From Bacillota bacterium (GTDB taxonomy: Bacteria; Bacillota; Clostridia; Peptostreptococcales; Anaerovoracaceae), in contig JAFWZZ010000015.1 of the NCBI GenBank assembly GCA_017522185.1, positions 1 through 64,000 of the forward strand: a stretch of DNA of 64,000 nucleotides, given 5' to 3'. Within the stretch, counting starts at the first letter, position 1, and each line of letters opens with the position of its first letter. A program made the translations under genes and the position numbers. The notes beneath the pieces were generated by a model. It ran no database searches. It had not been told where the DNA came from and saw only the letters and a program-made list of their open reading frames with translations. Shown in pieces: positions 24,692-26,222 of the stretch.

Positions 24692-25165
24692 CTAATCGAT
24701 ACTATCGATAAAGACGTCGATGTTGTTCTCATCTTTTAGTTTCTCCAGTTGTTTCAGGGCCTCTTCCTTGGTATCGATGTTCTCGCTGATGACCCTGTAG
24801 CTTCCGTCCTCTTCTTTGATTTCCGCTTCAATGCCGTCTTTGTCCAGCTGGGAAAGCAGAGTCTCTGCTCCGCTCCTGACGTCAAATCTGCCAAACTGGA
24901 GTACGTAGCCTCTGTCTTCTTTTTTCTTGCCGCTCTCTTTCGATTCCGCCTTTTTTTCCGCCGCATCCTCCAGACGTGCCGCCAGCTTCGACGGAAACTC
25001 CGGTTTCAGCACTTCCGTATCGTAGCCCATCAAAGGCCCCAGCGCAAAACGTGCCGTCAGATAACCCAAAACAACCGCACATAATATTATACCAAGAATC
25101 AATCCTAATTTCATCATGGAATTTTCTTTTCCCGGCCGGTACCGCCGCATTCTTCGTCTTCTCAT
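24692..25165 (-). CDS. SPOR-domain membrane protein
   Basis: The start at 25165 (MRRRRMRRY) has GGAGG 5 nt upstream, giving 157 residues. A very basic cytoplasmic N-terminus precedes one membrane segment (about 18-38). A charged linker rich in Lys and Glu follows, then a C-terminal SPOR domain (about 82-157, starting GYVLQFGRFD). SPOR domains bind denuded peptidoglycan glycans at division or sporulation septa. Its place ahead of rarA suggests operon organisation rather than a shared pathway. Confidence 0.82.
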   Translation of the reverse strand: MRRRRMRRYRPGKENSMMKLGLILGIILCAVVLGYLTARFALGPLMGYDTEVLKPEFPSKLAARLEDAAEKKAESKESGKKKEDRGYVLQFGRFDVRSGAETLLSQLDKDGIEAEIKEEDGSYRVISENIDTKEEALKQLEKLKDENNIDVFIDSID

Positions 25166-25268
25166 GTTGACCTCCGTGTTTTTCTCTGTATAAAACTTAT
25201 GCAAGAGTGTGTGGGAAAAGACGTATGAAAGTCACATGATTGGCAAACCGGCAAATCGTGATAACCGC

Positions 25269-25302
25269 GCAACCATCAAACCATATTTTTTGATGTTACT
25301 GC
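25269..25302 (+). repeat. Bipartite repeat copy R1
   Basis: The 34-bp element starts with GCAACCAT, has 21 variable AT-rich bases and ends with ACTGC. The next copy starts exactly 50 bp downstream in the same orientation. Confidence 0.75.
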
Positions 25303-25318
25303 GTTTAGAAAAAAAATC

Positions 25319-25352
25319 GCAACCATTAGACCAAATATGACGATACTACTGC
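25319..25352 (+). repeat. Bipartite repeat copy R2
   Basis: Same ends and the same 34-bp length as R1, from which it is separated by 16 A/T-rich bases. About half of the 21 interior bases agree with R1. Confidence 0.75.
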
Positions 25353-25423
25353 GCGTGATTAGGATTTGCATGCTGTAACCCGTGTTCCTGTAACCCTCCA
25401 CCTCTCACATGCATCCCAAAAAC

Positions 25424-25458
25424 GCAACCATTCTGTCACTTTATATGCGATTTACTGT
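25424..25458 (+). repeat. Bipartite repeat copy R3, slightly degenerate
   Basis: Begins with GCAACCAT and ends with ACTGT instead of ACTGC, with 22 bases between. It starts 105 bp after R2. Confidence 0.6.
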
Positions 25459-25539
25459 GTAAACCCTTGCGACAGTCAGGGATACATATGATTTTTCGCC
25501 GTATATCCTTCTCCACACAACTCTGTAGTGAAGGATTGC

Positions 25540-25573
25540 GCAGTACAATCACAAAATAATCACACATGGTTGC
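25540..25573 (-). repeat. Bipartite repeat copy R4, inverted
   Basis: Read on the minus strand the element is again GCAACCAT, 21 bases, ACTGC. Its orientation is opposite to R1-R3. Confidence 0.75.
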
Positions 25574-25589
25574 AGATTATTTTTTATAT

Positions 25590-25623
25590 GCAGTAAAGAC
25601 ACCGAATATGTAGTCATGGTTGC
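25590..25623 (-). repeat. Bipartite repeat copy R5, inverted
   Basis: Minus-strand GCAACCAT, 21 bases, ACTGC. It starts exactly 50 bp from R4, mirroring the 50-bp step of R1-R2, and is separated from R4 by 16 A/T-rich bases. Confidence 0.75.
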
Positions 25624-25662
25624 GGGATTAAAATGTCTCATGTAGTTTTCCTCATTTTTTTC

Positions 25663-25696
25663 ATATAAAAAAGGTTGCTTCAAAGAGCAACCTTTT
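25663..25696 (-). terminator. Terminator at the end of the Tad locus
   Basis: A GGTTGCT/AGCAACC stem (25686-25692 with 25673-25679) extended by A-T pairs runs into TTTTTTATA on the minus strand. The complementary orientation ends in TTTTCG, so it may work both ways. Confidence 0.85.
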
Positions 25697-25742
25697 CGTA
25701 CGCTGTTTTCTGTTGTCTGTCAATCATCCTGCTTAGGATTGG

Positions 25743-26222
25743 TTAGAACAAGTTGAGAGGCGGAAGCTGATTGGGTCTCTGCTCACGCCATTCCTCCAGT
25801 TCTTTCCAACTGTCATCCAAGCTTCCATAATGCCATTCAACATAAGACGCTGCTTCCTGGCTTAACGCTGAAATTCTACGGAGCCATGCATAGTATTCTA
25901 TGCTGGATTCACGATCCAAAGTATCAAAACCTTCAACATCTTCCCAAACTATATCCGGATCGCCTTCAATTTTATATCCCCGGGGTTCAAAGAAATGCAC
26001 CTTCATCCACTCCAGCCAGGTTTCCGCCTCTGCAAACTTTCCAGAAATACAAGCAAGTTTATCATCCTTATCAAAGAACCATGTGTTCCTAAAGTATTCA
26101 TCTATTCGCCTATAGACTTCCGGACATGTTGTCATATTAAAGTGCCAAAAGTCAATCAACAACTTATTATCAGGAGGAGGAATTAACTCCAGTCTTCCAT
26201 TTGCTCTTGTCCAAATTCCCAT
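25743..26222 (-). CDS. Hypothetical protein, tryptophan-rich, function unknown
   Basis: The 159-residue soluble acidic protein is rich in Trp, Tyr and Glu and has no signal peptide or membrane segment. I do not recognise a family. Notable segments are FWHFNMTTCPEVYRRIDEYF, the central EPRGYKIEGDPDIVWED and a C-terminal WKELEEWREQRPNQLPP. AGGAG lies 6-7 nt before the ATG, which supports it as a real gene. It is 69 bp after the DUF6382-like gene at the distal end of the Tad operon and before a terminator, so it could be co-transcribed. Small proteins of this look are often immunity proteins, but no toxin partner is present. Confidence 0.65.
   Translation of the reverse strand: MGIWTRANGRLELIPPPDNKLLIDFWHFNMTTCPEVYRRIDEYFRNTWFFDKDDKLACISGKFAEAETWLEWMKVHFFEPRGYKIEGDPDIVWEDVEGFDTLDRESSIEYYAWLRRISALSQEAASYVEWHYGSLDDSWKELEEWREQRPNQLPPLNLF

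Follow-up and report, generated by a model that had tools for sequence, protein, structure and literature searches.

Mirrored arrays of spaced half-sites point to a candidate DNA-binding system in an Anaerovoracaceae bacterium and its congeners

A 64,000-nucleotide stretch of a Bacillota bacterium genome (assembly GCA_017522185.1, contig JAFWZZ010000015.1, positions 1 to 64,000; hereafter the window) contains a compact cluster of short repeat units in two orientations. A preliminary description of the locus named a multi-site protein-binding region, recombinase sites and a decayed mobile element as its possible roles. The question raised by the locus is what kind of element this is and what keeps its units so regular.

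Layout of the window element

The array at the window locus was confirmed, with four 34-bp units and a central unit within 25269-25623 (Table 1). Re-reading of the coordinates upheld the five units, their size, the exact 50-bp distance between the starts of paired units and the A/T-rich 16-bp linkers given in the preliminary description, as well as its 35-bp middle unit ending in ACTGT. The interiors had been described as 21 variable bases; the length stands, but an A/T bias at positions 16-20, 25, 26 and 29 (21 interiors of 21 bp) makes them less than fully variable. The statement that no ORF explains the cluster holds for ORFs of at least 80 aa, none of which spans the element. A CRISPR array is rejected, as it had been before, because the orientation reverses and the conserved stretches span just 8 and 5 bp; the fixed mirrored layout fits this rejection.

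The pattern GCAACCATN{15,27}ACTGC has 4 matches in the window, well above chance (mean 0.05 and maximum 1 in 100 shuffles). With a model of the two-unit arm, the left arm scores 68.6 bits over 25268-25354 and the right arm 62.8 bits over 25538-25624; the central unit is a weak match, at 14.3 bits. Next to the element, at 25664-25696, an inverted repeat (GGTTGCT/AGCAACC) with A/T tracts looks terminator-like by eye, although the consensus scan of 25100-25800 did not flag it. The adjoining minus-strand ORF of 159 aa (25743-26222) has no family match in Pfam, NCBIfam or PHROGs at E 0.01 and, by eye, is missing from those congener loci upstream of the SPOR-like gene that were read.

Table 1 Parts of the window element, and complete copies of the element in the source genome
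Feature	Position	Strand	Description
R1	25269..25302	+	GCAACCAT-N21-ACTGC; left arm, outer unit; 34 bp
Left-arm linker	25303..25318	.	16 bp, A/T-rich; between R1 and R2
R2	25319..25352	+	left arm, inner unit; 34 bp; start = R1 start + 50 bp
Centre	25353..25539	.	187 bp; similarity to other lineages' centres not detectable
R3	25424..25458	+	central third unit; 35 bp; terminal ACTGT
R4	25540..25573	-	right arm, inner unit; 34 bp
Right-arm linker	25574..25589	.	16 bp, A/T-rich; between R4 and R5
R5	25590..25623	-	right arm, outer unit; 34 bp; starts 50 bp past R4
Element C5	C5:35268-35621
Element C7	C7:9430-9782
Element C9	C9:25269-25623		window element
Element C15	C15:17433-17787
Element C20	C20:19598-19951
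Elements C23a, C23b	C23:12015-12355 and C23:13888-14249

Copies across the source genome

Across the whole source genome (G000) the pattern with a 15-27 bp interior has 30 matches against 0 for a reversed control, so that it does not occur at chance frequency, a genome-wide check proposed with the preliminary description, and the window locus is one of seven. With a 21-22 bp interior there are 28 exact matches, again against 0 for the reversed control. Twenty-six of them, together with two units that are off by one base, assemble into seven complete elements of ~355 bp, that of the window included, and the remaining two belong to two truncated copies, on contigs C12 and C13. Matches of the wider pattern on C21 and C28, with 24- and 26-bp interiors, are isolated and were left out.

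The seven elements follow a common plan: two 34-bp units facing in, a centre of 173-194 bp (185, 185, 187, 186, 185, 173 and 194 bp) and two units facing back, with paired units starting 50 or 51 bp apart in all elements. The units are non-palindromic and are mirrored in 7/7 elements. A central third unit is present in C9 and C15 and, in degenerate form, in C23a. What is conserved across elements is GCAACCAT, ACTGC and the A/T core; only 2 of 364 end positions deviate over the 28 units, which lends no support to the term 'decayed' in the preliminary description. The arm model, built from 12 of the 15 arms that it finds or from homologues thereof, scores these 15 at 54-70 bits and every other match in G000 below 20 bits. 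Fourteen of these full arms are paired across a centre in the above length range, and the 15th, on C13, belongs to the truncated copy there, which is without R1, R2 and centre and has GCAATCAT as one unit. The copies are intergenic and the genes beside them are unrelated in function; several copies (C7, C15 and C23a) sit between gene ends, and the end of a predicted ORF reaches 15 bp into the final unit of C7.

Signs of selection on the unit ends

Elements C5, C20 and C7 align as homologues, and in this alignment, with gaps scored as variation, the variable columns number 0/52 in the unit ends, 25/85 in the interiors, 4/32 in the linkers and 60/186 in the centres. Pairwise Fisher tests gave p values of 3e-4, 1.4e-6 and 1.7e-5. 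Outside the undecayed ends the three copies are ~20-25% different, and the flanks common to C5 and C20 have diverged too (14/86 aligned sites on the left and 6/55 on the right). The centres of C9, C15, C23a and C23b match neither those of C5/C20/C7 nor each other, so that five unrelated centre lineages (C5/C20/C7; C9; C15; C23a; C23b) have the same ends throughout. Because end columns are invariant while so many centre columns vary, the unit ends look to be under selection.

Neighbouring repeats

A palindromic repeat of ~190 bp, matched 39 times by BLAST in G000 (for example L051:9229-9430), adjoins C5, C7, C20 and the truncated copies on C12 and C13, and three contigs end in or near such a repeat. 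A 15-bp terminal repeat, AAATTGGGATTTGTC, flanks C5 on its right side and C20 and C13 on their left, and no second AAATTGGGATTTGTC end was seen for these element-bearing copies. Elsewhere in G000, AAATTGGGATTTGTC bounds MITE-like copies with TA-like flanks by eye, for example C5:14201-14694 and C32:14171-14521. Copies of this kind (C32:14171-14521, which equals L138:1501-1851, and L136, L137 and L139) contain as many as four palindromic units (GTTTC/GAAAC, 56 bp each), spaced in steps of 80-81 bp. Neither the palindromic repeat nor a AAATTGGGATTTGTC end was seen alongside C9, C15, C23a or C23b. The element has probably been carried along by AAATTGGGATTTGTC-type repeats while keeping its sites.

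The element was also examined for the marks of a MITE in its own right. No target-site duplication was seen: the longest words common to the flanks within 16 bp of both ends are 4, 5, 4, 0, 4, 4 and 4 bp, similar to swapped flanks (mean 3.6 bp for own and 3.3 bp for swapped flanks). The outermost units stand in inverted orientation at the two borders, and beyond (C)GCAACC no common terminal repeat was seen in the seven elements. The copies are not homologous over their full length, homologous centres being found in C5, C20 and C7 only. One G000 contig, C16 (L124, 3009 bp), is transposon-like and encodes a DUF6431 protein, an IS481/TnsB-like DDE transposase and an AAA ATPase.

Distribution beyond the source genome

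At E 0.001 the arm model matches 1 of 349 family genomes, namely G000 itself, and the exact pattern is found in 14 of 99 genomes including G000, the other 13 having one or two isolated matches each. At E up to 1, matches appear in 6 of 12 congeners (E 0.008-0.65); the whole arm is covered in none, and we took these weak, partial matches as chance. Five places with the pair pattern in a genome contig collection were re-scored and dropped, two being half-matches below 14 bits and three giving no match. No window-type element was found upstream of the SPOR-like gene at the 10 readable congener loci (500 bp of each). Viral contigs gave 0 matches to the window motif and 0 to one pattern each for the congener words TACGGTCA, GTTGTGCA and GTTACGCA; a single viral match to the GTTTC pattern described below is a short local repeat and was discarded. 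A plasmid search returned no match to the element or to one neighbouring gene.

On these comparisons the window motif is lineage-specific. Conservation in related strains had been named in the preliminary description as a mark of a real feature, and in the relatives compared the motif is not conserved, at this locus or elsewhere; we read this as lineage specificity and not as chance, because 28 exact copies exist at home although relatives are without the motif. Its absence from 12 congeners and from 10 readable orthologous loci would be unexpected for a core function.

Arrays of similar style in congeners

Analogous arrays built on other motifs occur in some of the congeners sampled. The pattern GTTTC-N15..17-GTTTC-N4-GAAAC has 30 matches in G007, 28 in G000 and 0-2 in each of 194 other genomes; at least 23 of the 28 in G000 lie within four MITE-like copies having up to four units. 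In G007 the pattern forms at least seven elements with module spacings of 185, 196, 237, 196, 196, 206 and 206 bp, one second module being off by one base. These seven are helically phased (10.35 bp, R=0.99, 0/20000 random sets), though their centres may not be fully independent, because three of the seven have common 17-26 bp matches. For the R2-R4 spacing in G000, phasing is not significant (chance 0.13).

A motif-blind, layout-first scan with a threshold of log10 p <= -8 returned 14 intergenic arrays in 381 kb of G008, 5 in 140 kb of G011, 3 in 200 kb of G005, 1 in 189 kb of G000 and 1 in 56 kb around the known elements of G007; there were 0 in 196 kb elsewhere of G007, in 276 kb of G009 and in 258 kb of G010. 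Further arrays lie within long ORFs (2 in G008 and 1 each in G007 and G009). Controls gave 1 array in 100 kb of E. coli (tRNA genes) and 0 in Markov sequence, with one resample per stretch. Six of the seven G000 elements fall below the threshold and are found in the unthresholded list; also below it, and chosen by geometry, are the ATTGAGCA and GTTTCGTA arrays of G007 and the mirrored CGCCTTCA array of G005 (61/193/61). The words of the congener arrays were noted only after the scan, and those in G008, G011 and G005 include GTTGTGCA, TACGGTCA, AAGTGTCA, TTGACAAA, GTTACGCA and AGAACCAT. Some arrays are tandem copies with similar interiors, for example the GTTACGCA arrays of G005, and two TACGGTCA arrays of G008 have a 2+2 plan with an arm-to-arm step of 159-160 bp and are alike in one arm.

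Orthologous gaps were compared between G008 and G007. Upstream of a gene that by eye is citC-like, G008 has ten GTTGTGCA half-sites and G007 four ATTGAGCA half-sites, the motif being altered at two positions in every half-site found; inside a unit both species step by 31 or 32 bp, and from unit to unit the step is 42 or 32 in G008 and 32 in G007. In a second orthologous gap the sites are of the TTGACA type in G008 and of the ATGTTT/AAACAT type in G007, the latter at -7.8 in the scan, and in three further syntenic gaps the array is present in one species only. In G008 the TTGACA family resembles a MITE: the 381 kb sampled contain about a dozen copies, with ends of the CGGCAAACCCATG type (stretches L239-L241, L229-L238 and L222-L228) and some decayed sites. 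An ORF pair at L231:11598-12823 (G008 C40 51598-52823), by eye similar to an IS110-type transposase, lies 185 bp from AAGTGTCA/TACGGTCA arrays.

Docking array or mobile ends

We propose, giving it about an even chance, that selection maintains the element as a multi-site docking array for a lineage-specific, arm-bridging putative DNA-binding protein. Each 34-bp unit would be one bipartite binding site, with a GCAACCAT contact, an A/T core and a TACTGC contact; two units 50 bp apart would form one arm, and the arms would face one another over the ~185-bp centre. The putative protein would assemble on both arms, bridge them and loop the centre, most likely as a matter of local nucleoprotein or chromosome structure and not of single-gene control. 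We infer all three, the protein as binder, the bridging and the cellular role: conservation confined to contact-like positions, the fixed mirrored orientation and the phasing in a congener speak for a protein on both arms, and the fixed inversion suggests that it assembles on, and bridges, both of them. In this respect the multi-site protein-binding region of the preliminary description is indirectly supported by the contact-like ends and the selection on them, the A/T core and the fixed spacing. Against docking are the lack of significant phasing in G000, the missing motif in congeners, the arrays confined to one species and the G008 MITE with decayed sites.

The main alternative, to which we give a lesser though real probability, is a non-autonomous mobile element in which R1/R2 and R5/R4 are inverted ends with two transposase or recombinase sites each, the enzyme acting in trans; contacts alone would then be conserved since copies losing them fail to spread. 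The copies are indeed dispersed, lineage-specific and multiple, their mirrored two-site ends are like multi-site transposon ends, C7 resembles C20 from R1 inwards and is unlike it outside R1 (by eye), and the TTGACA family of G008 is MITE-like. However, no gene lies between the arms, which almost without exception pair over a narrow range of distances, and the ends are undecayed in copies that differ elsewhere. Two transposases found with the rve model, the sole transposase model used, lack the sites, and no transposase between such ends was found in the draft assembly. We favour a chromosomal factor over a mobile-element enzyme, because the sites are intact in otherwise diverged copies and across lineages whose centres are unrelated, and target duplication is not seen; a docking array sometimes accompanied by MITE-like repeats is the best reading.

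The other explanations seem improbable. An operator array, with a repressor or activator on both arms looping the DNA to control a neighbour, would at the window serve the SPOR-domain-like/rarA-like operon; paired-operator looping is a known mechanism and the element lies ~100 bp upstream of the SPOR-like gene, but the neighbours of the copies are functionally unrelated, some copies sit between gene ends, and a consensus scan found no sigma-70-like site in 25100-25800, so that we consider this unlikely. Slightly less likely still is a functionless palindromic repeat spread along with other repeats: it would suit those copies that adjoin the many-copy palindrome, or show one MITE-like terminal-repeat end, but not the four copies that have neither neighbour, and the selected end columns already disfavour it. 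Least likely is an RNA element, in which the two mirrored arms would base-pair within a transcript and give a long, interrupted hairpin. The predicted fold is strong (z -6.5 for the plus strand, -5.6 for the minus strand), but arms mixed between elements fold equally well or better (mean z +0.5 and +0.4), and the interiors are without covariation, with 8.5 identities of 21 for R1-R5 against 8.1 between elements and 7.3 for R2-R4 against 8.7. No Rfam family falls here, the five gathering-score matches in the window all being tRNA.

Comparison with known systems

The ends of Mu, Tn7 and IS21 have several transposase sites each, inverted between ends. The element likewise has several sites per arm and inverted arms, but it differs in having no transposase gene between them, no target duplication and unrelated centres. 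Bacterial MITEs are described in passages of PMC2229807 as short, non-coding, mostly intergenic and multi-copy, and able to hold protein-binding sites, as in the Correia element with its IHF site and in repeats with methyltransferase sites. Some copies of our element sit with MITE-like terminal repeats; unlike MITEs, they have spaced contacts and not the whole sequence in common, and have neither a terminal repeat nor a target duplication of their own. REP/BIME sequences, as outlined in parts of PMC2817692, are extragenic, alternate in orientation, bind several proteins and usually exceed 100 copies per genome; the element is also extragenic with units in alternating orientation, but has seven complete copies with contact positions in common. 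Noc-binding sites and parS are dispersed chromosomal docking sites whose ParB/Noc family has changed specificity, according to sections of PMC7383237. In contrast to these, the element has bipartite sites in two mirrored arms, and the window motif is not a 16-bp-class palindrome of their kind and has no resemblance to parS. The GTTTC-N4-GAAAC module of G007 resembles parS.

Implications

The mirrored arrays point to a candidate DNA-binding system with recognition words that differ from species to species. Tentatively, and judging from six partly sampled congeners, of which two gave no above-threshold intergenic array, the genus may possess an undescribed class of chromosomal docking arrays. 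Each genome would encode several rapidly evolving DNA-binding proteins, every one with a half-site word of 6-8 bp to itself; position and helical geometry could then persist while the word changes in concert, as in the GTTGTGCA/ATTGAGCA gap of G008 and G007. A literature search, judged from titles and abstracts, found no description of arrays of this kind. The layout-first scan provides a simple means of seeking such arrays elsewhere. If these are mobile ends, they represent a non-autonomous family that is recognisable mainly via its contact spacing and is missed by similarity searches. If they are docking arrays, they form a natural series in which words differ between species and geometry is kept, and one could directly trace how a DNA-binding protein and its many dispersed sites evolve together.
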